Origin: Rhyzopertha dominica
Taxonomy: Eukaryota > Arthropoda > Insecta > Coleoptera > Bostrichidae
DNA: 64,000 bases
Direction of reading: 5' to 3'
Assembly (NCBI GenBank): GCA_025024175.1
Contig: QCXZ01000001.1
Span: forward strand, 14,198,001 to 14,262,000
The notes under the pieces were generated by a model. That model ran no database searches and was not told the origin of the DNA. It worked only from the letters and a program-made list of their open reading frames with translations. Position numbers and translations under genes: made by a program. Shown in pieces: positions 27,383 to 59,114 of this stretch. Position 1 is the first letter of the stretch. Every line of letters begins with the position of its first letter.

Positions 27383-27650
27383 AACAAAATTACGTCTATG
27401 CCATGTCGCCTGCGTCAAAACAATCTGTGGACAGCTGTTTCGGCTTATAAAGCCTTCTCAGCAGCTATAGTCCCAACGCAGACAACACGGCATAGATCCG
27501 GTTTCCCTTATATGCGCCAAGGTAGGCGATGTGTATGCGAGAATTGTCTGCGTTGGGACTACAGTTGTGCTGAGGAGGCTTTATATGCCGAAACAGCTAT
27601 CCACAGATTGTTTTGACGCAGGCGACATGGCGTAGACGTAATTTTGTAGT
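27383..27650. repeat. Long hairpin: 103-bp inverted repeat with hammerhead-like core
   Basis: The arms 27383-27485 and 27544-27650 are near-perfect inverted copies around a 58-nt loop. Each arm contains a smaller structure: a GGCTT..AAGCC or GGC..GCC hairpin preceded by CTGAGGA (27570-27576, plus strand of the right arm) and followed by GAAAC. That combination resembles the CUGANGA/stem II/GAA core of a hammerhead ribozyme. However, I cannot draw a stem I plus cleavage site around it. Instead GGGACTA and AGTTG pair with CAGCT and TCC. It could be a foldback element or two inverted copies of a small structured retroposon. No protein is implied. Confidence 0.75.
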
Positions 27651-29750: not shown

Positions 29751-30044
29751 ATTATATTTAGTTACCAAAAAACTTTTAAAGTACGTACTTTTATGTTTTG
29801 TCACTTATTTCACAATTGTATGTAGTCTATAAAGTTAACTAATAATAACAAATTAGTTTTTGTATTGCCCCGTTCCTAAATCCTGCCTGGTGTCGACGAA
29901 GATTGTGCTGACCTAAAATTTATTTGTGCGCCTGCACAATTTTCTCCTATATGCAGATATAGTCAGGAAATACAATTTTTGATTCTTATTTTTGTTTGTT
30001 GTTTTGTTGTTACTCATAATATTAAATGCCAGCTTTAACGAAAT

Positions 30045-30306
30045 AAAGGTTCATCTTTAGGAAGTAGTTCCTGTTAAGGCAGCTAGGTGGCTTTGTCATC
30101 ATGTCAGTGTAATACTGACAGATGGCATTGCCATCCTAAATTCTTACTTTCATCATACCATTGCTTTGGTATATAAGCAAATCCAGTTCTATGCCGTGTT
30201 GTCTACATTAGACCTAAACTGCACTGATGAGCTGTAATGACAGCGAAATAGTACTATCTGCAGTTGGTTGAGCACAGCATAGACATGCATTTTAAAGGTT
30301 CATCTT
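30045..30306 (+). mobile_element. Hammerhead-bearing retroposon flanked by 13-bp direct repeats
   Basis: AAAGGTTCATCTT occurs at 30045-30057 and 30294-30306 and brackets a 236-bp unit that starts near TAGGAAGTAG and ends in GACATGCATTTT. Similarity to a second partial copy at 38225-38300 begins just inside the left repeat, so the 13-mers are best read as a target-site duplication. A tandem-unit junction of ~249 bp is the alternative. The 3' half is a complete type I hammerhead ribozyme (listed separately). No protein is encoded, so mobility would need a reverse transcriptase supplied in trans. I compare it with metazoan retrozymes and with hammerhead-bearing parts of Penelope-like elements. 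Confidence 0.75.
30188..30283 (+). ncRNA. Type I hammerhead self-cleaving ribozyme, intact
   Basis: All conserved positions are present. CTGATGA (30224-30230) is followed by stem II GCTG/CAGC around a TAATGA loop (30231-30244) and GAA (30245-30247). Stem III is the self-complementary ATAGTACTAT (30248-30257), and the cleavage-site C is at 30258, giving the triplet AUC. Stem I closes with AACTGCA (30217-30223) against TGCAGTT (30259-30265), and after an internal loop a further 13-nt strand (30188-30200) pairs with 30271-30283 with one mismatch and one G-U. Known type I hammerheads cleave their own backbone 3' of this C. Because stem III is a palindrome with almost no loop, efficient cleavage probably needs two ribozymes pairing through it. 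Nothing here is mutated. Confidence 0.92.
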
Positions 30307-36345: not shown

Positions 36346-38224
36346 TCCTTAGCTTCATATAAAATTCTTCAATACTCGATTAGTTAGAAATGTGTTGATT
36401 CTATCGCTTAATTTCCTCATTGACAGAACTTTTTTTTATCTGGGATTGTTTTTATCCTGCCAAAAGTCAATAAGTAAATAGGTGGAAAAACTGATACGAA
36501 AAAGATGCTATACTAACGAGTGTCTCAAACAGACATTTAGGGAATACACGAACTAGTTAGATAAACTTTGATTAGCTTTGATAATTTGTAAACTCGTGTA
36601 CATAACATTTTCGCGCATAGATAACCGGTAGGGTCGGTAACATCCCGATTTGACGAATCAGAATTTAGCCAGAAAATGAACGAGTAATGTAAGTTATTTC
36701 TACGAAATTTAAAGTCTGGAATCTAGTTCCAGATTTGATACCGATCACAGCTCACGATGTACGGTAATGAAAGTAGTCAAGTCCTAAAATCTGAATGTTA
36801 TGGTTGATATGCGCTTTTGCTGTGAGGTAGTTCATATTAATTTCGGATTAGGTACGCTTCTCTGTATTTTTGAAAATGTTCTACATAATTATTAAAATCA
36901 ACTTTGGTTTTGAATTATAATTTGATTAAATTGATCGTAATGAGAAAATGCTACCAAAAGTAAATCTTTGTGCAAAGTGGTTTAAATATCTAAAAATTAA
37001 TTTCTATATAATTACCAGAACTCGCGATCACGTTAAATTAATGAGAATCCCATAGTCAGTTAATGTCGGCCAACGATAGTGACATGTAAAAGGGATATAG
37101 ATATTACTCTTAAACTGTAAGACATGTCAGTTCAAATGAAAGAAGCTTTTAGAATTGTTTTAGAAATCGATATATAACATAGCTTCGAAGAAGAGTTTTT
37201 TAAACAGTTATCCCAAGTTTTTCCACTTACGTAATACGTAAACTTCAAACTTCTCAATGAATCATTCAATTCTTAGCATTTTATTTGGTCATTGAAATAA
37301 TCGGCCAGAAAGTTTATAATAACTTTCTCATCTGCTATAGAATAAATTTAAAGATTTTTGGGACAGGAGAATGGTTACCAGCAAGTTAAACCTGCAAAAA
37401 AGCTTTATACATTTTAGCCTAAATCGATAAATTACAGATGTAATGTGCTGATGCACAAATTAATTACAGTTCCAAGCGAAATTAATTAATGGAAGCATTT
37501 CAATCAGTCTAGTGCTCTAATAAGACCGAGAAAGTTTTAGCAACATGAAACGTTTAANCGCAACGCAGATTCATTATTCTAGAGGTTTACTTAGTTTCGG
37601 GATCAAGCACGTAGAACCCCAACCTCTTGCTTTTCCTTATATTGATTTGAAAGTCCCGCAGATTTTAATAGCACTCAAAATTCCGATATAAACGAATATT
37701 TCGCGTCCGATACTATCGCAGATGAATGTGAGTTATGGAAGCATGGTGAAATATACTTTCGGACTTCCAGCAACTAGACGGAGTTATTGATTATGTGGCG
37801 CGGTAAATGCACTCTAGCACGCGACAAATATTCAACCGAGGGCTTATCGCCCCTGTCTGATCCATTCTTTTCGGCGAAAGGGAAGTTTTTCAAGGTGCGG
37901 CGCAAGATGAGCCATAGAAGACCAGTAACCGCATTTTAGACAGCTAATGCTTGGGGGAATAGTGGTAAAATCGTTCTTGAGTGAGGAGTTGACGCGGGCA
38001 TTAAAGTCCTAAAGTTCGAAGGACATCCGAGGGTCGGAGCTAACAGATTTTCGCTTTAAAGGAACTAGTGTAGTGTATAGATTTGACAAATAGTACATTA
38101 CATAACATTACATTACAGCGCGAGCTTATATTAATGAAGTTTTCTAACGAATAAAAAGATTAGAAATTGAAGAACTGTCAGCACCTAAAAGAATTTAGTG
38201 GTAACTTGAATATATGCCACTTCC
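36346..38224. other. No gene recognised
   Basis: A G+C-richer patch at about 37840-38060 was read in all frames without finding a known motif. The remainder is A+T-rich. Confidence 0.4.
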
Positions 38225-38300
38225 TTTACGAAGTACTTCCCTATAAGGCAGCTAGGTGGATTTGCAGGCATTTAAGTTTATTATTGCTGCTAAATGACAT
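38225..38300 (+). mobile_element. 5' fragment of the 30-kb hammerhead retroposon family
   Basis: GAAGTACTTCCCTATAAGGC followed by AGCTAGGTGG aligns with GAAGTAGTTCCTGTTAAGGC and AGCTAGGTGG at 30061-30090. Further on, ATGACATTGGCATC aligns with ATGGCATTGCCATC. Similarity fades by about 38300, and no hammerhead core follows, so this is a 5' fragment or a copy whose 3' half has decayed. Confidence 0.6.
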
Positions 38301-38639
38301 TGGCATCTACTTTTCCATAAGGTCACCGAATCTTGACAGGTATCGACAACGTTCCGACGTATATCTATAGTTTTTGAAAACAATTCTGTATTTGAAATTG
38401 TAAGACGCTTGTCTCATACGAAACTCGACACTAATTTATCTTCATTACTGTCATAAAGAAGATCCCTTCACATATAAAAATTATTTTACTATTAAAAGTT
38501 GAGTAAAGTCTTATTAATTTTTCTACAAAATCACAAAAACAATTCAAGCACCTGTCATATCGAGTCACAGGCTTTTAGATGCCCTCTCTTCAGGGAACTT
38601 TGCTGCCAACTTAGTCAAAAGTACATTTTGACAACGTAC
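38301..38639. other. No gene recognised
   Basis: A+T-rich sequence between two mobile-element fossils; nothing identified. Confidence 0.4.
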
Positions 38640-44122: not shown

Positions 44123-45062
44123 ACGGGTGCGCAAACTCGAGCTTCGGTATGGAAATATTGAATAACTTCGACAAGTAGTGAAAGTGAATGTTTGTTAGTG
44201 TTTTTTTATTTGATTTAGTCCTTTACAATTTGTTTCAACTGTACTTAGAACACAACATCCAACAAATGACCACCTTTACGAGCCACACAATATTATGCTC
44301 TTGTTTTCGAATTTTCCAATACTTTGGCCAGCACGTTGGTCTTGAGCGCTTCCAATGTCGTGGGCTTGTTGGCGTATACTTTACTTTTTAGATAACCCCA
44401 TAAAAAAAGTCCGGCGGCGTCAAATCCGGCGATCTTGGAGGGCACTCAATATCCGCCACCTTTCGACATCAAACGGCCGGGGAACTTTCGCTTCAAAAAG
44501 TTCATCGTTTTGATCGCCGTGTGGCATGGGGCGCCGTCTTGTTGAAACCAGAAGTTCAATAATATTTTTTCGCGCATTTTTGGAATCACATAGTGCCCCA
44601 GAATCGACAATTTTGTTTGTTCACTCCGCCAGAGAGATGGAAATGGGCCTCGTCCTTGAGCAAAATTTGATTCCAAAACTCGGAATCAACCTGGGCCATT
44701 TGAACAACGCTTTTTCCGTATTCCAAGCGACGGGGCTCGTCTGTAAGCAATAATCGTTGGGTTATTTGCACTTTGTAAGGAAACACGTGAAGATCTTCCT
44801 TTAAAATCCTCCTGAGAGTAGTTCCTTTGATGCTGGACACGGTGACGATACGACGGTATGCACGTTGAGCAAGCACAATTGAACGACCATTTTCCAAATA
44901 CATAGTCACAATTTCCGCGCGTTCTTTAGGTGTAAAGTTATTCATGGTAAGAATTGTACTGAAATGACGTTTCCAAATTTTTTTCCTCAAGTCATACCAA
45001 CAATGGATGACAAGGTTATTCAATAGGTATTTCCATACCGAAGCTCGAGATGGCGCACCCTG
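44123..45062 (-). mobile_element. End-to-end IS630/mariner-type transposon, internally deleted
   Basis: The terminal inverted repeats are about 50 bp. The left end starts ACGGGTGCGC, followed by CTCGAGCTTCGGTATGGAAA and TTGAATAAC; the right end is its inverse starting CAGGGTGCGC. TA flanks both sides (44121-44122 and 45063-45064), the TA target duplication of this superfamily. The element is 940 bp, shorter than the usual 1.2-1.3 kb, because the transposase has lost an internal segment. Its transposase lies on the minus strand and is a pseudogene (listed separately). Confidence 0.9.
44300..44943 (-). pseudogene. IS630/mariner-type transposase, internally deleted and frameshifted
   Basis: The start at 44943 reads MNNFTPKERAEIV, the helix-turn-helix opening of the family. 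LLLTDEPRRLEY and FWNQILLKDEAHF follow; KDEAHF keeps the first catalytic Asp. SGGVNKQNCRFWGTM comes next, and then a stop. In another frame FWFQQDGAPCHTA carries the second catalytic Asp, and in a third CPPRSPDLTPPDFF keeps the third, with WGYLKSKVYANKPTT to the end. About 40-45 residues expected between WGT and the second Asp are missing. The catalytic triad is still spelled out, but two frameshifts and the deletion make the gene non-functional. It is read entirely within the inverted repeats at 44123-45062. Confidence 0.88.
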
Positions 45063-48000
45063 TAGGTATGGCTGACAATATTGATACAAGTTTTGAAAAG
45101 TACGCAATTAAAAAAAATATTTGAAGTTGCCAAAGAAATAATTACAACCACAGTTATCCCATTATATAAAAGAGTAATACGGATTGTTTTCCTGTGCAAT
45201 TTTTTTTCCAAAAATGACCCATTTCACAACCTGAAAAAACGAGGCATGCCAGAAATGTAAGGGGATTTTATTAAGAGGAACGATTACCAAATTGGCTGCC
45301 ACTACCGGACAAGTTATTTGCAGAAGTGGTCAAGAATTTAGAAGTATAGCACTGCCATTTAGAAAATGACATTGTTTAAACCACGAACAACAAAAATGAC
45401 TAGTACTCGTACAAACTGTTAATTTTATCCCCACATATATATACGACAATTCGTCTATATTTCCTATTAAAATAAAAACAAAATAACGATGTTTATGCAA
45501 ACCCTATACAACCATTGAACTCCTAACAAAAGAGTATGAAAAATAAGTATTTAGAAGACCAGCTAAAAATGTAATTAGGTATGTTATTGACATAAAACAG
45601 GTATGTATCTGGATAAAATATATCGAAACTTGTATACACAATACATTATTTCTTGCTAGACAATAAAGCTTCCTATTATCATGCCAATAACAAATAAATT
45701 GATCACAAATAACCCAACTGTGAAGTCCAGACTATACTAGATTATTAAAAGGCATAGCCTTTTTTTATTTTAATTAATGCAAACCGCAGTTTGGCCGATA
45801 TTGTCCGATTAATGCAAATTATATACATATTGACATAATTCATGCAAGCACAAAGTAACATAATTCATTAGGAGCGGTGTCACCTTCACCGAAGTGGAAA
45901 CTATCACTGCATATCCCACATGATCTACTATTACATACTCGTCTTCTTATTAACGTGACTTTCCTAACAATTTTCGTCGTAATAAACCAGCCAAAGACAG
46001 TTTCGAGGTTTGAGCGTATAACATGTTCGCTCCCGACAGTCTTAGAAGACGTGGCGTGCACGACCAAAGTTTTATAACTATATAACTTGGATTACGAAAC
46101 CAAGTTCTTGCTACCGAAGTGGCATGATGGATGGGAATCGTGTCTTTATCAAAATAGGTACATCGTTTTACGGATCCATCACGAAATGTAATTTGAAAAC
46201 GTACTGTATTAGGTTCTTCAACCGTAGCATAGTATGAGTATGTGCGCTGTCTACACTATACACCAATGCCGTTTCGCCGTTTCGATATCGTTACATCTCA
46301 CCAAAAATAGAATGCCGAATGATGGCAATGTGTAACCTGAAACAAGCATACACTTTAACGTTTACTGCATTCTATCCCTTCTGCATCCCTTCTGTAAGTT
46401 AATTTTTTAAAGTTATTTTTTCGTCAGTACATACCTGCAGAACAATCACGTGTTTTGGCTGGCTTTTACATGAATCAGTTAACCGTTTAAATTAGATGGT
46501 AATTTGTATTTTTGCTACATCTAACTATACACTAAACTAGGTTCATCGCTTATAATATTCATGTACACTGTTTAGACATTAAATTCTTTCTTAATTCGTT
46601 TGATTTTGTAGATATTAGTTGACAACAGACAAGTTATTGGTAATATTTTTTGCCGATTATCAACTTAAACAACTGACATGAACATGGCTTTCTTGATTAC
46701 TATCGCTTGGGTTCAACAATGTTTACCGTTATTTAAATGGTTTTTTATACTGAATCGATTTCGTCTTAATTATAGATTCAATTGCTTACTTACTTGAAGC
46801 ATCTGAGATGAAAAAGTTAAGCACCTATTTCCCTAGATAGTGCATTCTAAAAATATAAAAATTGCGATCATCAATTTTATTTTTGCAGCACATTATAAAA
46901 TGATCAATTTTGTTAATCTCAGAAAATAAAGTTCTGGTTTTAATCATGAAACGCAGTAGTCATTATTCATTGTGTTTGCTTACAGGTTTTATGTTTAGAT
47001 GCCATCTAAAGTTATATTCGATTTTATTTATTTCTATTTTATTAGATTACAATAAACAGATGGTGCACTAAACCTGTCTATCCCAAACAATCGTTATTAA
47101 CGTATAACAAAAGTTCATGATTTTTAGTATTTTTTTTTTATTTTTTCCATCACTTGGAGATACCTACATAATTTATTACATTTGGTATTGGAGGTGTTTT
47201 GGGCTTAAGAATGTTAAATCATTTTGGACTGGAGAAATGTTTTTCCCGAGCTTTTTAACATATAAAAGATATACCTTACTAATGTCGTAAGGAGCAACCG
47301 TTCTTTGAGAAAAACTCATTAAAACTATTCTTTTATCAGATGAAGTACTATCTCATAAACTGAATGTAAATTAATAATCCAATTACTTTAGCTTAAATAT
47401 ATAAGAGTGTGCAATACTAACTTTATCCGATACATAAAAACGGAATTTTTTGTAAACGGTTGGTCCTAGTGATACCACTATCTCTATTATGTAAAAATAG
47501 TAACAAAAAAAGCCAGGATTGATATACAGAGAGGAACAAAAAAGTGTTAGTGATTTAAAAACTGTCCCAACCGTAACATGTGGCGCTCTCCGCACATGGA
47601 GATCTCTAGCAAACATAACAAATTTGTAAATAGAATAATTGGATTCATCAACAAACAAGCCTCCAACTTTTAGGCATTATTTCAACTATTTCAACACCAT
47701 CTAAACATATTAAAGCTAATGAAACTTATATTCCTAACTTTGACAATATATTACCTTTTATATCAAATTTCGTACTAAGGTAACAACATTTTATGCAAAT
47801 AACAACAGGTTCGACGAATTTCCGTTCGTACGATATCACAGTATTTACAGAAATGCCAATTACGTAATAAAAAAAATCTAGATCGTTACCTTAAAAACAT
47901 GAAAATTCCACTGTACGCCGAGTATTTTGGAAATAACTTCCCCGAAAATTTTTATGCTGATTTACACTAATTACGTGTAATCTTATAGCTGTCCATNGAA

Positions 48001-49956
48001 ATTTGTTTGCTGGGCAATGTCCTAATCGCAAGCATTAAAGAATGTTCTGCAGACCAAAATAAATATTTTTCTTAACATCTTATTGAAATTACTTTATTAC
48101 TCGTATATGGAATTATACTGTCGCCAAGATTAATACTTATCTAATTTTTGGGCAAATAAAGATTCATCTTCCCTAAATAAACGTAACTTTATTTAATTTA
48201 CGAAATAGCATGGAAGTTAAATACTACGTAAACAGGAATTTGCGTCTACAATATGTCAAAACGTTTAACTGGTTTGTATTTGAAGTTGTTTACATCTCGG
48301 CGGCGATGAGAGAAGCGCATACAGACACCAGAAAGCATTTTACCATCGTGTGTACTTGACATTCTAAATGCAATTACGAATCTCCACGAAGCAAAATAAC
48401 ACCGCTCAAGTAAGCTTATGATGCAAAACGTACGTGACGTAGACAACCATAGGCGAATACAGAACACAAAATAGCGGACTAACAGTAAACACGGCGAAAG
48501 AAGAAGAAAGGTCGACTTCGTCGCCTGCAGCATATAAACTAGTCTTGAGGTGACCGAGTTCCGTTACCGTCACCTCTACACGTATGGAAGAATACCGGTT
48601 CAAAACACATGCATCCAAACGAATAATACAGTTATTTCTCCGAAACGCGATATCCGTTTTTTTTTCACGAACCTTGTCGGGCCATTAGGTCAGCCTAGTT
48701 TATTGCGGTTGAGCTGAAATGGCCATCACCTTGATTTGAAAAATGGTCTTTTCGCGGGCCAGTTGATGATGCTGTACGTCAAAATGGAATTATGGAAACA
48801 CAACAGGATCCTCAACCTACCCAGCTGCTGATGACAACAATCCCTTTTTATTTGATAGCAAATGTATAAAAATTCTGGCAACTTTTCACTTTGCAACCGA
48901 AATCTACCTTACTCTAAGAACACTGCCTTGCCATCCAGTTTTGTTATCGTAATAATGGATCGCCATCATCGTTCGACTTTTTTTTATAGGAAAAATGGTC
49001 CTACCAACAGATGTTTTAACAGATCTCACTTACATAAAGCTTTGAATTTACGAGTTGATTTACAGCGATTGTAACTTCAACACAACAGGAAAACGGAAGA
49101 AACCAGTTGTATATTTTAATATAAACATGTGTTCTCAGTGACTTACTATTCTAAAACGATAAGCGAATATAAAACAGCGTGACTGAAATGAGTCACGATG
49201 ATGTCAATAAAAAGTACAGACAAATAAAACTTCACTGTACATCTTAAATAAGAATGAACTAATACTTTGGACAATATCTATATTTTGCAGATATGTTATG
49301 TAGAAAAGACTAAAAACTGATTATTTGGTAACTTCGTTGGACAAAAGTCTATTAAATTCAGGTAATGACCTATAATTTAGAAGGCTAGCTTTTTTTTAAC
49401 AGCAATCATCAAATTTTCTGAGCTGCAGATGCTAGGTATAAAAGAAAACGAAACTGAATTTTATCGTCAGTTTCCTTAAACATGTAATAATTTATTTATG
49501 ATGCTTATTATTCCTATTTAAGCAAAATGTGTTCAATAGTTCTTAAATTTCAGTGGAGAAAACTGTGTAGTTACACATATATTAGATGCCTAGATGAAAC
49601 TACTTCTATGGTACTGTAATCATTCGTCCAAATCCAAAAGGTAATTTAGCAAAAACAGGTGAAAAAAAGAAACCAATAGTACTTCCTATAGTCCAGACAT
49701 TGCCAGCAGCCTGCACATCATATTGCCGGGATGAAAATTTGAACGATATGCGACAAAAAGGTGAAAGCTGCCATGCGGACATACATAGAATGACTGACAT
49801 AGAAATAAAACGCCCATTAATGACACTGGTTTTACTTCAATAAATTTTGGTGGCACATTTATTGGGATAAAGCAACTAAATCGTTAGAAAACAGTCATGA
49901 ATCGGATAATAAGTAAGAATCTAAACAAAAATAATAACCTGTAGAGCTTCTACGGT
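45063..49956. other. No gene recognised
   Basis: A+T-rich DNA. A G+C-richer patch at about 48290-48620 and a 64-codon minus-strand frame at 49606-49800 (ending in AAGNVWTIGSTIGFFFSPVF and a short tail, preceded by a possible splice acceptor) were considered as exon candidates, but I cannot assign them. A small palindrome AAAGGCATAGCCTTT lies at about 45748-45762. Confidence 0.4.
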
Positions 49957-50077
49957 GCTGTCTGACTTGGTCATGGAATATTATGATCGATCTCCAGCGC
50001 CACCTAAGCGAAGGGCATTTGTTCTCTTGCACATCAGTGCTGCATACTGCGGTTAAGGGGGCTGTCTGACGTGGTCA
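49957..50077 (+). repeat. 17-bp direct repeats upstream of hammerhead 2
   Basis: GCTGTCTGAC, then T or G, then TGGTCA occurs at 49957-49973 and again at 50061-50077, 104 bp apart. The second copy runs into the 5' strand of the ribozyme's stem I. The first may mark a truncated upstream unit of a tandem arrangement, or the pair may be coincidental flanking sequence. Confidence 0.55.
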
Positions 50078-50150
50078 ATTAATTCGGTATTCCGACCTGA
50101 AGAGCCCCAACAAGGACGAAACTTGTCGTATGATCCGATTGAAATGACCA
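50072..50150 (+). ncRNA. Type I hammerhead self-cleaving ribozyme (second family)
   Basis: CTGAAGA (50097-50103) fits CUGANGA. Stem II GCCC/GGAC (50104-50107 and 50114-50117) has one C-A mismatch, and GAA follows at 50118-50120. ACTTGT (50121-50126) is stem III, and C50127 completes a GUC cleavage triplet. Stem I is long: TGGTCA (50072-50077) pairs with TGACCA (50145-50150), TCGG near 50083-50087 with CCGA at 50135-50138, and AC next to the core with GT at 50128-50129, separated by internal loops as in natural type I hammerheads. Stem III can close only as a 2-nt-loop hairpin or between two molecules, so cleavage would favour dimers. The core is intact, and the stem II mismatch may lower activity. 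Confidence 0.85.
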
Positions 50151-53100
50151 GAGCAGATGTTTATGTATTATTATTCATCTTCGCCCATGGAGAAGCTTCC
50201 CGAGTGTCAACGACTAGGTCGTGAGTGGCTACCACAGTCGTAATCTGCCTAATATTAATATTCGCAACCTGTTTCTGTATAATTTCTGAAATTATCATTT
50301 AATACATTTTGTAACAGAGTCAAACTGTTAATCAAGATTAATTGGACATTATGCAATAGGCATTAAATTATCCCTTTACTTCAAATAACTTAAATTATTC
50401 CCTTTACACGAATATTGCTGTTGATCCTTGGTCCAGAAGAGTGATTTTAGAATACAAATCTGGGACAGACAGGAAATTTTAAAATGCGAGCTGCCGCAAG
50501 GAGGAACTAACGTCTCCATATGCTGCTCCTGATCCCTGGAGGCAACCATGTTAAGTGCTTTCTCGGTGCCAGCTAATATGCTAACAAAACTATTAAATTT
50601 CTCGTGGCTAGTAAAAGCCTGAATACATCATTGCCAGAAGAGCGAAACTAGACTTTACGATATTTAGCTCTTCGGTGATTTACATACTGCATTGCTGTGG
50701 CTTGTACAGTACAAACATTTTGTCTTTTCACTACAACAAACAATATCTTTGTTTAAAAGTGATGGTAAGAAACGGGACAATGATTTCATCCAAATTTACG
50801 GCAATGTGTGACGAAGTCATTGCCTTATGTGACACATTCTAAATGAAATGTTTATTTGGTGTTTAATCACACCCGGCTGTCAATATTATCTAAGCAATTG
50901 AGCAATGCAGGAATATAGTCCTATAAAAAGCAGAAAATTCCGTTTATCTGTCGCAGACTATTTGCAAATATTATATCGAGATAACGATTTTAACGCTGTG
51001 CTTATCCGAGAAATTTTAACCGCGACGGGAAGTAAATTATTCATCTTTCTCGTTGCACAAATGCTTCATCACGATGTTTAACATTAAAACCGATGTACGT
51101 TCCATTCCTTAGAACCGTGATTTGCGGGACCAAAGCCAAGGTGATTTTATTTAATACTTGGGAAGATAAAAAATTTAATGTTACCACGATTAGGATTTTT
51201 TAAACCAAACGGCATAAGTACCATTACTTTTACGACATCATCATGTGTGGTCAAAGCTATTTACAAAAACACTGGCGATTTTAAGATGCTATAAAGGTTC
51301 GTACTTCTGGTGCGAAAAAAAAAATGCTGAACATGCTGCCCAAGTTGAATTCTCGGTAAACAGTTTACAGACAGGTTTGAAAACATTCAGAAATTGCTGG
51401 GAAAGCTCAAGATATACAAGTGCGCAGCAGAGCGATTTAAACTGCAAATACCCATCAATCATACCGGGAACCAGAGCTGAGTACTTTGATAAATTGCAGT
51501 TTTTTCTTAGATGCGAAGTTCCGGCTTTGACCCAAATAAGCGTATCAGGTTACTTCGTAAAGAAAATCGTTTACATAATGTGAATGGTTCAATCTAACCT
51601 ATGCGCAAGTTGTCCTAAATGTGAACCACAATGATGATGCATAGACCCCAGAGTCTAAAGTGAAGTTCAAGCCCCATCACGTAATAATAACTTTCATTAA
51701 TAGAGATCCTGGATATATATAAACAAACAACTTTAATATTTTAGCGGTTCTTTCATGTGAATTTAATAAATAACCCGAACATTGTGGGAACAAACGNTTG
51801 AATATGAAGTGCTGAAAATACGTTGAAATCCTCGTCATGAACAAAACTTATGCAAGAATATATATAGCTATAACATTTATGTGCGTGAAATTGCAAATTT
51901 AACATCTCATTCACTTAATGGTGCAAGACTTTTCCGGACCCTCTCAGATACCTATGCCTTACTAGTTTCCCATTCCGAGTGTACCTACTAATCGCGCGAC
52001 CGAAAGCTGAACAGCAGGGCGTTAAATGCTCTTCCGTAAACGGCAGCCGTTCAATGCATCCAAATTTCGCAATTTCCGGAATACGTAGCGAAACGGTATA
52101 TAGNCGCTACTTTCCTGGTTGCAGCACACACTGAAATAAGAAAGCTGTAAAACAGAACTTTTCATAGTTATCTGAATATATCACGAACACTTATTGGTCC
52201 GAGTAATAGGCATCTATAAATATACGGTACAAAATAGGGATGGTCGTTTCGCAATAGTAGTTGTAGTTATTAAGCAGTAGCCCTTCGGCGTATATACGTA
52301 ACGAAGCAGAAATACATGCAGCAAATGTAGTGCATAAAAAAGGCGTTGCTAATTGACCAAAGTTTTTATGTTACAACGGTATCTGCAGATAATATACTCA
52401 TATTTAATGCAACAAAAAGGAGGCTCGTTTTTCATTTAGTTTTCCAGATATGTACCATCTATCAAGCATCGTTTAAAAAAATTCACCGCTTTTGGTCTTT
52501 TCGAGGTTTAAGCCAGAGAGAATTACTTGCATATGGATGCTTGAAATAAAATAGTATAATAAATTGAAACGCAATATCACTTTTTAATGGATCTCTTAAA
52601 ATACAGAATAGGTGCATGCATCAAATATTTTAATATTAGAACCACGGAAAACAGTTTTCATTACAATTTTAACACCGATTGTCATTACTGTGAAGAATAT
52701 TAGTATCTTCTTCATACAAACCTCCGAACGTAGAATGGAATATCAAAACAGTTTTTTTTTATTTTAAGCTCTTTGTTACACACAAGTGGGAAATGTAGAA
52801 AATTTTGAAATATGTATAAAGGAACTGCGATACAAATGTTATTTCCAAACTAAAATGCTTATGTTCTTACTGTTTTATATTATTCATATTTACGCAGAAG
52901 TTCATTAGAAGTTAAAACTTACACGAGAAATTTTTAGTTTTATTACTTCCACATCCAATGGATGGGAAGTGTTGGATTGCGAAAAAAAAATCTAAAATTT
53001 TTATTTGCTCATTCGCTTTAAATTGGTCGAAAACACAAAAAAACGAAATTTGAGCAAAAACAAATTTCTTGTCTGTGTGTGGTTTTGTTTGTGGACACGA

Positions 53101-53539
53101 TAATTTTTGAGACTTAATATATGAACTTAAAATTTGGCAAACGTATAAATCTCAACTACCCAAAGCGACCTATTGTTTGTGGGGTAAGTAGGGCATCGGG
53201 AAGGGGGCGAAATTGGGAAGTAACTACCCTTTTTGCAAATTTTTTTTCGTTTTAGTATGTGATTAGTAGTATAACTGCGAGTATTATTCGTTCTTATAAA
53301 TTTTCAGTGTAGCAAACTGTTTAGAAGATATTATCAAAAAAGCGTCACTTAAAGAAAACGGTATTTCCTAAATATCTCCCAATATCTTTAATATATTCAA
53401 AAAATGAAAATACCAACACATAGGAAATAAAATTTCTCAAAAAAAGTATCTTAGAACATTTATCCNAAATTTTGAAATATTCTAAATATTCCCAAACAAC
53501 CTATTTTGGACCCTGTCGTACGATTTTTTTAAACTTTGG
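50151..53539. other. No gene recognised
   Basis: A+T-rich DNA. One unassigned 112-codon frame (51245-51583) is listed separately. No structured repeats were seen before 53540. Confidence 0.4.
51245..51583 (+). CDS. Unrecognised 112-codon ORF, probably not a gene
   Basis: I do not recognise this frame. It has scattered cysteines and basic residues and no membrane segment or known motif. There is no neighbouring gene or element to support it. A chance frame or a fragment of an old element is likely. Confidence 0.1.
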   Translation: MWSKLFTKTLAILRCYKGSYFWCEKKNAEHAAQVEFSVNSLQTGLKTFRNCWESSRYTSAQQSDLNCKYPSIIPGTRAEYFDKLQFFLRCEVPALTQISVSGYFVKKIVYIM

Positions 53540-53701
53540 TATTATATAGATTATTTTTCCGACCCAAATATCGACCAATAGAATTGCACCATTCGACGTC
53601 ACGTGGTACAACCTACATGGTATTATACTGATTATTTTTCCGACCCAAATATCGACCAATAGAATTGCACCATTCGACGTCACGTGGTACAACCTACATG
53701 G
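53540..53701. repeat. Two tandem 81-bp units with a block inverted at 54227-54271
   Basis: Units 53540-53620 and 53621-53701 are nearly identical; each runs from TATTATA through GATTATTTTTCCGACC, CCAATAGAATTGCACCATTC and GACGTCACGTGG to CCTACATGG. The block from GATTATTTTTCCGACC to TTGCACCAT is present in inverted orientation at 54227-54271. The two blocks therefore look like terminal or subterminal inverted repeats of the recombinase element between them, with the left one duplicated. Several Ns in and just after the second unit suggest assembly uncertainty. Confidence 0.75.
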
Positions 53702-53832
53702 NATTATACTGNTAATTTTTTGATTATTTTCTNTGGTAGTTGCTATATATAAAAAACAAAACATGATCCAGTCAAATTAACCACACGTCAAACTGACAGG
53801 TTGAATTCAATTGTGAAAATTGGAGATTTTGC

Positions 53833-54336
53833 ATGAAAATGAGTCGATTTGGAGTTTGTTCTCTGTCCACCATCGATAAAAAAGTCAAAGGAAATGTTCC
53901 CATTAATACGGAGAAGGCAAAAAAAACAGTTTGGAACCAATTTACTACTTTTTGTACTGAGAGGAAATACACATTGAGTGCTGAAACGAGTGAAGCGCAA
54001 TTGGCAAACATTATGAAAGATTACGCTTACAATATGAAGAAAATGGATGGAGAAGACTATAAGGAAGGTACAATAAAAACAATGTGGAATCAGACTGCCA
54101 AATTACTTCAAGAAAAGTATTTGAACGATTTCGACATCAAAATCAACCCATTTTCGGATGCTGCATTCAAAACCGCTCGAGGAGCTCGTGATGCCAAGCG
54201 TAAGGCTTTACTGTTCATTTCATCTCATGGTGCAATTCTATTGGCCGACATTTGGGTCGGAAAAATAATCCCCCGAATACCACACGAGCTTCAAAATTAT
54301 CTGGCATTTCCCTCAAGGTTCCCTGCAAACAAATAA
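53833..54336 (+). pseudogene. Crypton/KIAA1958-like tyrosine recombinase, N-terminal fragment
   Basis: MSRFGV opens the protein (second Met at 53839). Then VWNQFTTFCTERKY, ANIMKDYAYNMKKMDGEDYK, GTIKTMWNQTAKLLQEKY and FSDAAFKTARGARDAKRK follow. This is the order and spacing of the core-binding (SAM-like) domain of Crypton-derived recombinases related to vertebrate KIAA1958 and ZMYM proteins, in which such a domain precedes the catalytic R..HxxR..Y domain. After residue ~118 the frame enters repeat-derived sequence (ISSHGAILLADIWVGKII) and stops at 54336, so all catalytic residues are missing. It could bind DNA at most. The first ~118 codons are otherwise uninterrupted, which suggests a fairly young copy. 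The leader upstream, repeated at 54470, may contain its promoter. Confidence 0.78.
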
Positions 54337-54473
54337 AGTCGTCAAGTTTTTCAGGAAAAATCACTCGCGCTTCGCGCTCGTGATTTTTTAACCTGAAAAA
54401 CTTGACTCCTTCATTTGTTTGCAACGAACCTATCGGGAAATACCCGATAATTTTGAAGCTCTTGTGGTATTAT
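54275..54473. repeat. Terminal palindrome 1 (~95-bp arms)
   Basis: The two halves are inverted copies with indels. They share AATACCAC/GTGGTATT at the outside, GAGCTTCAAAATTAT and GCAAACAAAT with its inverse, and CAAGTTTTTCAGG/CCTGAAAAACTTG near the centre. The centre reads CACTCGCGCTTCGCGCTCGTG, itself a palindrome. As single-stranded DNA or RNA this would fold into one long hairpin. Confidence 0.85.
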
Positions 54474-54810
54474 AAGTGATAATTTTTTGATTATTTTCTC
54501 TGGTAGTTGCTATATATAAAAAACAAAACATGATCCAGTCAAATTAACCACACGTCAAACTGACAGGTTGAATTCAATTGTGAAAATTGGAGAAAAATCG
54601 GAAAAATAATCCCCCGAATACCACACGAGCTTCAAAATTATCTGGCATTTCCCTCAAGGTTCGTTGCAAACAAATAAAGTCGTCAAGTTTTTCAGGTTAA
54701 AAAATCACGAGTGATTTTTTAACCTGAAAAACTTGACGACTTTATTTGTTTGCAACGAATCTATCGGGAAATACCCGATAATTTTGAAGCTCTTGTGGTA
54801 TTATAAGTGA
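54470..54810 (+). mobile_element. Tandem deletion derivative of the recombinase element
   Basis: The leader (54470-54593) is joined directly to GAAAAATAATCCCCCGAATA and the terminal palindrome. The whole ORF and most of the inverted block are gone. The deletion junction is near 54594-54600. It lies head-to-tail with the larger copy, sharing the GGTATTATAAGTG motif at the boundary, as if integrated from a dimeric circle or made by slippage. Confidence 0.75.
54615..54804. repeat. Terminal palindrome 2 (~94-bp arms, 2-nt loop)
   Basis: It is centred at 54709/54710 (ATCAC-GA-GTGAT). The inner 45 bp of each arm is essentially perfect (AAGTCGTCAAGTTTTTCAGG followed by TTAAAAAATCAC, with its inverse). 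The outer part has a few mismatches. It is a more regular copy of palindrome 1 without the CGCGCTTCGCG centre. Confidence 0.88.
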
Positions 54811-55940
54811 AAATTACATTTCTGATCACAAAGCACTCTTGCAATTTTGGGACTGATTTTAAAAATTTATAAATTTTTGCTAATGTCACGAGGACTGTTT
54901 GTCTTAGAAAAAATGTGTAGAGAGAAAAAATGCTTAAAACCTGATTACCAATCGTATAGAATAAGACTTAAAAACGTAAATGTCATTCTGACAATTGGAT
55001 GTGGAAATATTGACTCAATTTGCAGCGGTTTTTTTAACATCACGAAAAATCGGTAAAAATTTCTGTAATGTGCTCAGAAAAACACATAAAATTTAAGATA
55101 AAACAAAAAAGTAATCGTATGTGATTCACAGCTGCATTTTTAAACTGTAGGTACGTATTCTTACGCCAAACAAAAAAAATATCCAATTACTTATCTCTAT
55201 TATCTGGACTGTTCAAATGAAAATACGAAAACCCGCAGATTTGATGGCACCCCCAGAGTTCCGGATATGACGTCAACCCCATATTTTCGTAAAATAAATT
55301 ATTATTGTAATTTTTTTTATTAATGTAAAAGTTTTTTTTTTACTATTTACACTAAATTCAATCCAAAAACACTGAAAAGTGGTACCCCATGAGTACTCTG
55401 CACAACTATAACGAGGACATGGTTTAACATCAGTAAGTGAACTCTGAATCTTTTACTAATTTTTAAGGTAGCCAGGATTGATATCTCATTCAAGCACTAA
55501 GGTGCGTTTAAATCAACGGGGAATAAATAAACTAACATTGCTGGTAGAGTAAGATATGAACATCCTGATTTGCTCCCTGCAGGGGCTACTACTGGAGAGG
55601 GTTGTTTCTAACAGTTGGGTTAATTCAATCTTTTTTACAATTTAACTTCGTTGGCGGTTTTGTACTCAAACAATAAAGATTGGCCCTCCTATGTCCTATC
55701 TGGACATATAGTTTCAGCATGAAACAGCGCCTTTTTATGGCGTTGCACTGCAATTCTTAAATAATACTTTTGTTGATTAAGTTGATACGAGGACTAATAG
55801 TAAGCCCGGTACTTTGACAAGCTCAGTGTTTTTGTTTGACCATTTTAAATAAACATTCGGCAGGAATATAGTCAGAAGGAAGAAAAACAATGTGGCATGG
55901 TTGTAATCAAAAAGGAATACATTAGTTTGTCTCAAAAAAT
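54811..55940. other. No gene recognised
   Basis: A+T-rich DNA with runs of A and T. No exon, repeat or structured RNA was identified. Confidence 0.4.
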
Positions 55941-55944
55941 GACT

Positions 55945-56020
55945 CTGATGGGCTGGGGAAAAAAAACAGCGGAACTCATGAGTCACGGGGTAAGGCTTGT
56001 CAACCCAGACACATTTTATT
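55945..56020 (+). ncRNA. Hammerhead ribozyme, mutated copy (unit A)
   Basis: CTGATGG (55945-55951) replaces CTGATGA. Stem II GCTG/CAGC (55952-55955 and 55967-55970) is intact around an A-rich loop. GGA (55971-55973) replaces GAA. Stem III is the palindrome ACTCATGAGT (55974-55983), followed by C55984, giving the GUC triplet. Two invariant core positions (A9 and A13) are changed to G, and the 5' strand of stem I is not recognisable upstream, so this copy should be inactive. The 3' strand of stem I resembles that of unit B. Confidence 0.75.
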
Positions 56021-56025
56021 TGCCA

Positions 56026-57803
56026 CACAGATAAAATTATTTGTTTGGATTTATAAAATAAATTTGTTTGACTTACATTTCTTTAGGTCCAACAAATTTA
56101 TCTTCAAACAAACAAATTTGATTTGTAAGAAGAATAACAGTTTGTTTTAACTATATTACCATTTATTTGAGATCGAACAGAACTTGCGAGTTCAAGTAAC
56201 CTAATAATTATTTGAGCGAACAGAATATTATTTTTCACGGTCAAACAATTTATTCCAATGAGTTAACATTTCAAATATTTAAATTAAATGCTTTGAAGAA
56301 TTAGATCAACAAAAGTAAATCATTGTTTCAAATAAATATATCTTTCGTTAAATCAATGTTTCTTTTTGTTATTCAACTATTTAAATGTAAACTCAAACAC
56401 ACCTGTTGTTACAGCAAACAACATGTATTTAAACAGAATAAATAATGCTTTAATGCAACAATCTGTTTTTGGATACAAAGAAATAATTGTTTGAATTTGC
56501 GCGTGCCACTAGCAAAGTGGAAGTTTGGAGTTCCGCTTCTTTAGCCATGGTTGGACCCTGGACAGAATGTATCAAGGTAAATCGGGAAAATCCGCCTCTT
56601 ATTATTGTCAGTTTATTTCATTAAATGTGAAACAAAAGAGGAAGATGGTCACAGAATTTAAAAGTAAGTATGAAGCCTAATTAAAGTATTTGCTTAATAT
56701 GATGTGAAAAATAAGGCATTGAAACAAGCACATGATCGTTAACGTAAGCTCTGTTACAAAATGACCATCTATGATTCGTAAGGATGTTAATTACGGCGTT
56801 GTTTCTCTACGTCTTGAAGTAGGTATATGTAAAGTCTGCTCAATGAAGTGCCCTATTTGTACAAAACTACTATTACAAGTAATGCGTTATTTATTCAGTA
56901 TATTTGTAATACTAAAACGGAACACATTTATCACGTTATAGAAACCAGTAGAATTGTGATTGTCCTTTAAATTTAAATAAATATCATACTTTCCGTCTGC
57001 ATTATATTCGTACATATAAGTAGCAAAATTTACCTTGTCAATGGACTTGTCTAGGTTAGGCTGATTTAAATCAGAGGTTTTTTTTACCAAACCGATTACA
57101 GTTTGGCGGAAATGAACTGAGTGACATGTTGCATTTTTAATTACAAGAAACATCTTTTATACGCTCAATAAAAAACAGGAAGCCACAGGAATACACTTGC
57201 ATAAAATACATAAACATATCAAAATGGGTTAATCAAAATTTATTTCTTTAACTTAAAAACAATTTATTTATTATTTAAAGGGCTTGTTTGAATGCAATAT
57301 TTATAAAATCTAATTAAAAAATATATATTTCATTAAAATTCACATGCAGTTTGCTGCAATAACAGAGACAATGAATTGAGTATCTGAATTATTTCAATCA
57401 AACAATTGTTTGATTCCAGGAAATAGCTGTTTCATTGGACTAAATCAGTGATATCTTTACTGCAAAGAAATATTTATTATGTATGCAGAGAATCACTTAC
57501 CTCTTCTCTGATTCCAAACAAATATTTGTTTCGGTCAAATTTATTCATATGTTTATTCCAAACATCTTCATGATTTAGTGAAACAAATACTTTGTTCTAC
57601 AAAGGAAATGATTATTCTTGATTCAATAGTTTCAAAAGTTAATTTAAAGCTTTGTATATATTATGTTGAATANACGTTATTTTAGTCGCTTCAAGAATTT
57701 TGAGGGTTTGAAACAAACAAATCATTTACTTCGCTATATACAAATAAATAATTTGTTTGCCGTAAATATATTTTTTTCTTCCATACAAATTGTTCTCTCT
57801 GTG
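56026..57803. mobile_element. CACTA-like non-autonomous transposon with CA target duplication
   Basis: The ends are imperfect inverted repeats: CACAGATAAAATTATTTGTT followed by TGGA at the left, CACAGAGAGAACAATTTGTA followed by TGGA as the inverse of the right. The host sequence reads TTTGCCA before and CATATTTG after, while the uninterrupted unit B reads TTTGCCATATTT. This gives a 2-bp CA duplication and an insert of 1,778 bp. Both flanks (about 56026-56480 and 57290-57800) are packed with CAAACAAAT and ATTTGTTTG motifs in both orientations. Subterminal repeats, ends starting CAC and a 2-3-bp duplication suggest the CACTA/EnSpm (CMC) group. No transposase frame was found. Confidence 0.7.
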
Positions 57804-57950
57804 CATATTTGTTCATGCACTGGAATATATCTTCCTTTTAGTCTTCCTGTAGCAGAGCTTAGTCGCTGCTCGCTACTTGCTCGTGGCTATGTCTTGCAGT
57901 GATTTCGTTTGGTACTTTTAGGCTTCTCGTATTACTTGTACTTAGAAAGT

Positions 57951-58048
57951 CTGTCTCTGTTGGTTAGCAAGTCGGTAGCCTTCGTCTGATGAGCCGAAAA
58001 AACACCGAAACTCATGAGTCACGGGGTCCGGCTTGCCAACCAAGACAG
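57951..58048 (+). ncRNA. Type I hammerhead ribozyme with long stem I (unit B)
   Basis: CTGATGA (57986-57992), GAA (58007-58009), stem III palindrome ACTCATGAGT (58010-58019) and C58020 (GUC triplet) are all intact. Stem I has CGT (57983-57985) against ACG (58021-58023), an internal loop, then 57961-57975 pairing with 58028-58042 over 15 positions with one A-C mismatch and one G-U, and CTGTC (57951-57955) against GACAG (58044-58048). Stem II is weak: GCCG (57993-57996) against CACC (58003-58006) gives only two pairs. Unit A keeps a good GCTG/CAGC stem II, so unit B has lost it by mutation. The core should be recognisable to any hammerhead model, but activity may be reduced. Confidence 0.85.
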
Positions 58049-58160
58049 ATGGCCTTTTTATTTGGCATTATTTGCCATATTTATTCATGCACTGGATACT
58101 GGAATGTATATTGTATACTCCTTTTGGTCATAGATCCCTACGCCAGAGCTTAGTCGCTAC

Positions 58161-59114
58161 ACTTTTATGCTTGTTTAAAAAAAAGAGCTTTTGCTAAGGA
58201 AATGCCGATGCCGCCATCTAATACCACCATGTCATAATAAAATCTGTAGATAATAGAAGAAGCAAAATTGACTAGAAACGGAATTTTGTATCCTGTGGGT
58301 TTCGAAGGAACAAAAAAGCGAATAATTTGAAATGTATGGCCTAAATTTAAAAAACAGTATACATATAGCTACTGATACAAAATCACTAAGTGACTCAGCT
58401 TCCCCGTCTGATACCTACAAAACTGCAATCTATTGTCATTACGGTTACTTGCCCTCTATTTGTTTTCCGCCTAATTGATTAAATTCTAGTGGCACAACCG
58501 GGGAACGCAACTGATTGATTACCTAACTTGAAAAGTTCCACATCGTTTCGTAAGTTAGTTCCGGGCTTTCGTGTGCTTAAACACCTGAACTGCGTATCCG
58601 TGCACGGCGCACCAGCATTTTCGAAGCCAGTTCCCACAGCGTAATATTCAGAATCCCTTAAAATTCCTGTCGTTCCGGGAACACGCAGGCGAGTGTTTAC
58701 TATAAGGGATTCGCAGGGGCTTGGCATTAATAAAGCGAACGGAGATACCTGCAGCGAAGTTTGTACAAGCCACGTAAAGTTATCCTTCCCCTCAAGGATG
58801 TGAGAGACTAAGTGTTAGACGAACAACCAACGGCTGTGCGAGGTGATTTCAATCGAAATACATTTTGGCAGAGGTGATATTGAATTTCAAACTATCAATT
58901 CAGTTGAACAGAATTGTTTTTTTTAGTTTATCTCATCCACGTCCATTTGAAAATTGGAGAGATTTTTTTGGAATAAGGTGTTAATAAAATTGGGTAAGAT
59001 CCCTTTTTTGAAAATTACGTAAAACGAATCTTGAAGTGCATAATATATAGTACGCCATGTTAAAAAAACAAAAAAAAATATTTGTAGGTAGAGAATTTCC
59101 GGTCTGAAATTCGA
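58161..59114. other. No gene recognised; unassigned 82-codon frame at 58479-58727
   Basis: A G+C-richer patch (about 58480-58740) holds a minus-strand frame with several Pro, Gly and Cys residues (GTTGILRDSEYYAVGTG). I do not recognise it, and no splice sites clearly frame it. The rest is A+T-rich. Confidence 0.35.

Follow-up and report, generated by a model that had tools for sequence, protein, structure and literature searches.

Divergent hammerhead arrays in the genome of Rhyzopertha dominica point to Penelope-type priming of a retrozyme family on both target strands

Metazoan non-LTR (non-long terminal repeat) retrozymes have been described by Cervera and de la Pena (2020; PMC7229834) as tandem units of 150–450 bp with one type I hammerhead each, which occur as dimers upward, have a GC content below 45–50% and no coding capacity, have target-site duplications, where present, of more than 4 bp and correspond to a highly paired circular RNA. 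Their mobiliser has been left between long interspersed nuclear elements (LINEs) and Penelope-like elements (PLEs), both in that study and in a December 2024 review (PMC11722881). Here we describe hammerhead loci in a stretch of 64,000 nt of the beetle Rhyzopertha dominica (positions 14,198,001–14,262,000 of contig QCXZ01000001.1; the genome comprises 479 Mb in 138 contigs), in the following called the window. An earlier note, made from the sequence alone, had proposed a tandem retrozyme-like pair of hammerhead units, A and B, split by a transposon (55941–58160); the two units lie at 55944–58172. On its own this A/B locus is an ordinary fossil: it is real, but it has decayed and belongs to a known kind. 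It led us, however, to a young family of 352-bp units in the same genome, and the architecture of these insertions, apparently undescribed so far, points to Penelope-type priming on both strands.

With units of 256 bp (A/B) and 352 bp (young family) both families fall within the size range of metazoan retrozymes, and exact target-site duplications of 12–17 bp at 27 of 38 young loci exceed the 4 bp described there. A highly paired circle is predicted for the young family, as its circular unit folds far better than shuffled sequences (z = −8.9). In contrast to the retrozymes described, most of the young insertions examined have a pair of divergent arms whose outer ends are both fixed; the main text of PMC7229834 makes no mention of inverted or head-to-head orientation, and the literature searched, mostly outside subscription journals, yielded no title that deals with head-to-head retrozyme arrays. 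Two further animal systems are similar in part. The pDo500 repeat of Dolichopoda cave crickets (PMC2837043) is also an insect hammerhead repeat whose multimers are processed to monomers, but it is described as satellite DNA, and the likeness is one of description only. The W-elements of Schistosoma mansoni (PMC8490949) are satellite-like, some with working type I hammerheads, and show signs of mobility including one possible target-site duplication, but no head-to-head arrays are described in that account.

One copy of the young family lies in the window itself, on the plus strand at 30044–30306, where 235 bp (30058–30292) are enclosed by exact 14-bp direct repeats (30044–30057 and 30293–30306). 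This copy carries an intact type I hammerhead at 30224–30258 (plus strand; Rfam HH9, 29.6 bits, under the gathering score); 10 nt of the outer stem I are missing and the 45-nt core pattern is kept. A genome search with this element gave 2,415 first-look candidates, and scoring of the best 40 resulted in 101 matches, which we grouped into 39 places; the 38 besides the window's own were examined. The unit is 352 bp long with a GC content of 43%, and the arrays are 97.7–99.9% identical (median 98.6%) to a reference unit taken from one array. Intact hammerheads were found in all 38 loci, with two or more on one strand in 14 of them. In 28 of the 38 loci a minus-strand arm is followed by a plus-strand arm, that is, the arms are arranged head-to-head; 10 loci have a single orientation (one of them, L046, is partial in the extracted stretch), and tail-to-tail arrays were not observed. 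The outer ends of the two-arm loci are fixed: in 23 of the 28, one end lies at unit positions 88–101 (around 93) and the other at 245–254 (around 248), either of which can be the left-hand one (16 versus 7 cases), and in none of the 28 do both ends fall on the same unit position. The inner junctions are variable. The full unit, arranged in tandem, served to place the ends, and their positions are therefore not fixed by the span of the query (unit 1–248). The exact 12–17-bp direct repeats are found no more than 8 nt from both outer ends (23 of the 27 loci are two-arm) and are 79% AT; none of 1000 random pairs scored as high. One duplication around both arms and fixed ends indicate that in most of these loci the two arms were inserted in a single event, with the RNA-sense 3′ ends facing outward.

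The arms of an array also share their sequence variants. Copies differ by 0.43% within the same arm, by 0.40% between opposite arms and by 1.48% on average between arrays (values that count cells, not independent events). At 12 sites that vary among arrays, the two arms of one array carry the same variant in 186 of 189 comparisons, with no disagreement at any site in 23 of 26 arrays. When arms were permuted among arrays the mean agreement was 77% and 25%, respectively, and the observed level was reached in none of 2000 permutations. Both arms should therefore derive from templates of a single kind, which is what a circle would supply.

The layout of these insertions resembles that of PLEs, which have been described with inverted pseudo-long terminal repeats (pLTRs), a duplication around the whole insert and an optional tail at one end (PMC3846280). 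A lizard PLE protein was shown to cleave and extend both strands, with an internal start on the RNA (PMC11167929). The retrozyme arrays are compatible with such a mechanism if a circle replaces the linear messenger RNA. Head-to-head repeats in one duplication, unequal ends, an AT-rich target and tandem or partial-tandem copies are common to PLEs and the young family, although the 352-bp unit is too short for a reverse transcriptase frame. In the young family, head-to-head copies within one duplication are represented by the 28 two-arm loci, 23 of which have an exact duplication, and an extension of fixed length at one end is seen in 23 of the 28. The genome itself contains at least 144 matches to the GIY-YIG domain (best 150 of 2,080 candidates scored), 57 of which share a score of 33.5 bits. 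By our reading, neighbours less than 5 kb apart among the matches listed form 19 minus-then-plus pairs and no plus-then-minus pair. Three loci picked from those pairs (L097, L098 and L099) are all head-to-head with one end ~40 nt longer; two of them lie within exact target-site duplications, one of 12 bp and the other of 16 bp, and the duplication of the third is weak. All six arms of these loci carry a GACC/GGTC stem followed by GAAACGTC, ~75 nt before the shorter end; this motif, with its unusual core, is reminiscent of a minimal hammerhead. Near the young copy L085 (G000:C53:7052700-7054500), at a distance of ~500 bp, there is a GIY-YIG match (C53:7052542-7052781).

At the A/B locus the hammerhead stretches 55961–56014 (A) and 57997–58050 (B) are direct copies with 87% identity. 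When the insert is omitted, A and B align through the rest of the unit with 130 matches and 21 mismatches (86% of ungapped columns), and the alignment score outside the hammerhead is 85.5, compared to a mean of 28.9 and a maximum of 51 in 1000 shuffles. The two direct copies of the earlier note are thus real, and their similarity outside the hammerhead stays well above background. The cleavage sites of A and B are 2,036 nt apart, a distance that shrinks to 256 nt once the insert and its 2-bp duplication are subtracted; the tandem period proposed before therefore stands, at a value slightly lower than the suggested 260–275 bp. On the plus strand, unit A comprises 55944–56025 on the 5′ side of the insert, starting at the hammerhead core, and 57806–57960 on its 3′ side, where it continues into unit B; the rest of unit B extends over 58051–58172, of which the final part possibly follows an internal deletion (the similarity of this tail is reached by 23 of 1000 shuffles). 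Upstream of 55944 the similarity of A to B is at shuffle level, with its score reached by 196 of 1000. The GC content is 43% in A and 44% in B, and no frame of at least 120 amino acids overlaps the array. A genome search for this family gave 184 candidates, the best 40 of which were scored; among the 50 matches, which include the window, the others have 70–88% identity. Tandem neighbours of this family are present elsewhere in the genome, for example a pair on C41 at a spacing of 306 bp and a group of three on C3 at a spacing of ~169 bp. The assignment to a retrozyme-like family is supported by the type I hammerhead, the 256-bp unit, the GC content, the dimeric state and the dispersed relatives. 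When the hammerhead motif or pieces of the unit were scanned in viral contigs and prokaryote genomes, no match was found.

The two hammerheads of the locus have decayed in different ways. Remnant A (55945–55984, plus strand) has an intact stem II (GCTG/CAGC) and two core changes, A9 to G and A13 to G, the position names being our own reading of the sequence. Since A begins at the core, the 5′ strand of stem I is absent, and the stem I pairing of −8.6 kcal/mol is at background. Changes of A9 or A13 have been reported to cut activity 10- to 100-fold (PMC4075628). Hammerhead B with its extended stem I (57949–58050, plus strand) has a complete core at 57986–58020 (CUGAUGA, GAA) with a predicted cleavage after C58020, and its stem III has 3 bp by our reading. 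The stem I duplex of −37.9 kcal/mol was reached by none of 2000 shuffles; random sites of the same geometry reached it once in 3906 in a first draw and never in 5871 in a second one. The earlier statement that this pairing is hard to obtain by chance is correct for B and does not apply to A. In stem II of B (GCCG/CACC) two of four pairs are broken, and just the pair adjacent to the core is kept before two mispairs. The best Rfam match over B is Hammerhead_HH9 with 26.6 bits, under the gathering score of 52; at the gathering score there is no match anywhere in the window, and all matches at relaxed thresholds lie below it. A published filter rejects hammerhead matches with any core change or with multiple mispairs in short stems (PMC3088659), and if it is applied neither A nor B counts as bona fide. 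A complete core together with sound stems is thus found in neither, A being altered in the core and B in stem II. Judged from these defects the window copy would be dead or nearly so, and monomer release by two cuts does not appear possible, the more so as the insert separates the cleavage sites; the idea that this dimer could yield a monomeric circle is accordingly not borne out here. Intact tandem copies that could yield monomers lie elsewhere, in the 14 young loci that hold two or more per strand. Within the A/B family an intact-looking hammerhead was found in 6 of 30 extracted loci (the window's own included), three of which have the GCTG..CAGC stem II exactly as in A. Relatives of this kind indicate that the ancestor of A/B was a normal type I hammerhead.

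We consider it probable, as one joint reading, that A/B is an old and no longer functional insertion of the metazoan retrozyme type (~1.75 tandem 256-bp units, each with a type I hammerhead originally, later decayed and split by a transposon), that it represents one among several hammerhead families of the genome, and that in the young family hammerhead RNA circles, or uniform multimers, were reverse-transcribed from both target strands in the manner of Penelope. A multimeric transcript would be cut by its hammerheads into 352-nt monomers, which would be ligated to circles as reported in other animals. A Penelope-like reverse transcriptase would then cut the two strands of an AT-rich target 12–17 bp apart, and both target 3′ ends would prime synthesis inside the RNA, each at a fixed site, around unit positions 248 and 93. 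Synthesis would often round the template more than once, until the two complementary DNAs meet head-to-head and leave divergent tandem arms with the RNA-sense 3′ ends outward.

Several observations weigh against this joint reading. Cleavage, circularisation, the enzyme and two-strand priming are inferred, and the variants common to both arms would be explained equally well by a uniform multimeric transcript made from a homogeneous array. The 352-bp unit has no match inside the three sampled PLEs, nor was a terminal sequence shared with a mobilising partner found within these GIY-YIG elements; the sole match, 36 nt with 89% identity (E = 5e-9), is in L099 and lies 348 nt beyond the end of the element. 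The ends are offset by ~40 nt in the sampled PLE loci, and by 30–40 nt in the PLEs described, but by 155 or 197 nt in the retrozyme. For the lizard protein no difference in start site between strands was seen in vitro, and insertion does not need hammerhead cleavage (PMC11167929). The 38 loci stem from the 40 candidates with the highest scores among 2,415, and the proportions may fail for older copies. Even among these loci L030, L040, L085 and L088 depart from the two-end rule (L094 is incomplete in the stretch), the second arm of L040 and L085 measures just 16–17 nt, and 11 of the 38 show no duplication with a score of at least 12, the incomplete L046 and L094 being among them. At the A/B locus itself the head-to-head signature is not seen, and the joined A/B monomer has an unremarkable fold (z = −0.84). 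Both orientations occur in only 7 of 30 loci of the A/B family, of which at least one (L052) may be a self-overlap. A possible decayed target-site duplication of the A/B array (left 55925–55941, right 58169–58185) has 13 of 17 matches, a level reached by 7 of 600 pairs drawn at random and by 10 of 600 that were A-matched, and is suggestive only.

Head-to-head arms within one target-site duplication are likewise predicted by twin priming of a LINE, in which one strand primes at the 3′ end of the RNA and the second one internally, resulting in an inverted 5′ part and a duplication; LINEs are also named beside PLEs as possible mobilisers in PMC7229834. However, in 23 of the 28 two-arm loci each outer end is at a fixed position inside the unit, the arms can exceed several units, two arms are found in 28 of 38 loci, and three PLEs of the same genome share the architecture (the comparison within this genome covers PLEs). 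Among LINE insertions inversions are in the minority; their second start is scattered, and they end in poly(A). We therefore regard twin priming as unlikely. Far less credible, and already disfavoured, is an ordinary hammerhead satellite spread by unequal exchange, with the head-to-head arrangement produced by subsequent inversions or by errors of assembly: cave crickets do have hammerhead satellites (PMC2837043), but 27 of the 38 young arrays are dispersed, each inside an exact 12–17-bp duplication and with fixed outer ends.

Two other explanations concern the A/B locus. The pLTRs of PLEs are arranged in tandem and bear minimal type I hammerheads (PMC7761336), and A/B could accordingly be a piece of such pLTRs instead of a retrozyme. 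Yet none of the nine stop-to-stop frames of at least 120 amino acids in the window matches a reverse transcriptase or GIY-YIG, the long stem I and 3-bp stem III of B are unlike the minimal motifs described for PLEs, and A/B shares nothing with the three sampled GIY-YIG loci beyond 17 nt at an E value of 0.09, which makes this origin improbable. It is slightly harder still to believe that the locus continues to work, with the core of B cleaving its own site and, in trans, that of A to release RNA. The stem I strand of B does pair with the 3′ strand of A at −25.3 kcal/mol, and there is a natural hammerhead whose stem II has a single pair (PMC3088659); stem II of B, however, keeps just its core-adjacent pair, and the product would include the 1.78-kb insert.

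The insert that splits unit A at 56025/56026 occupies 56026–57803. It is 1,778 bp long, close to the ~1,780 bp given before, has a GC content of 28% and no long reading frame, and is bounded by a 2-bp duplication and by imperfect terminal inverted repeats of 24 bp that begin with CACAGA; their 19 of 24 matches were reached by none of 62,151 equally spaced pairs in the window. A search for relatives (best 40 of 525 candidates scored) gave 47 matches besides the window, of which at least 20 are near full length with 89–94% identity; 11 of these begin at query base 126 (56025) and 11 end at 1904 (57803). In 5 of 7 relatives fetched the element is flanked by TA on either side; in the window copy both flanks are CA. 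From its terminal repeats and the TA flanks of its relatives, we class the insert as a TA-targeting DNA transposon with terminal inverted repeats. Its closest known counterparts are non-autonomous transposons of the Tc1/mariner-like kind, which it resembles in both these features and from which the CA flanks of the window copy differ.

Further hammerheads of the window were identified with a scan that required a perfect core, the closing pairs of stems I and II and a stem I of −18 kcal/mol or lower. Four sites were found on the plus strand (27570, 30224, 50097 and B) and none on the minus strand, compared to none in 60 shuffled windows; A was not recovered because of its two core changes. Allowing one core change at −20 kcal/mol adds 27461–27430 on the minus strand, represented by two hits that overlap (shuffles gave 0.12 on average and at most 2). 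If a sound stem II is required as well, 27570 and 30224 remain, and 12 shuffles gave none. The loose hammerhead pattern by itself is not significant (6 found, 4.8 expected); it is the stem I pairing that discriminates. The 27570 site belongs to a head-to-head inverted pair of hammerhead units at 27384–27647, whose arms are 82% identical; its plus-strand hammerhead (27570–27601) has a complete core, and the minus-strand one (27461–27430) has one core change. The young-family copy in the window is related to this pair (66% over 133 nt, E = 1e-9), and a partial relative of that copy, with 74% identity over 84 nt and its hammerhead part unmatched, lies on the plus strand at 38224–38307. A third, decayed hammerhead locus (49954–50165, plus strand) has its core at 50097–50135, with the 5′ strand of stem I repeated at 49954; it is a distant relative of A/B, and its score against B was reached by 1 of 200 shuffles.

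Upstream of the A/B locus other repetitive sequences were observed. A 179-amino-acid frame at 53797–54336 matches a hypothetical protein of Molorchus minor with 93% identity across 69% of the frame and is probably part of a mobile element. A long near-exact direct repeat at 54257–54796, with an offset of 341 and then 331 bp, is adjoined by an 81-bp tandem repeat (53537–53720) and contains a sub-threshold MIR837 match at 54660–54759. At 44586–45107 there is a transposase-like frame with a sub-threshold match to the DUF4817 helix-turn-helix and named arthropod relatives. Named relatives of two transposon-like frames of the window are found in ant, fly, amphipod, cockroach, beetles and butterfly.

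Whether metazoan retrozymes in general are satellites of PLEs, so that one hammerhead-made circle, reverse-transcribed at the same time from both strands of a staggered cut and from two fixed internal starts, gives two divergent multimeric arms per insertion, is a wider claim, towards which the young family inclines us slightly. The fixed outer ends, the single duplication and the variants shared between arms can be tested on a purified PLE protein and in other animal genomes. If this claim is true, unequal-ended head-to-head arrays would be a diagnostic mark of retrozyme mobilisation in other animal genomes.

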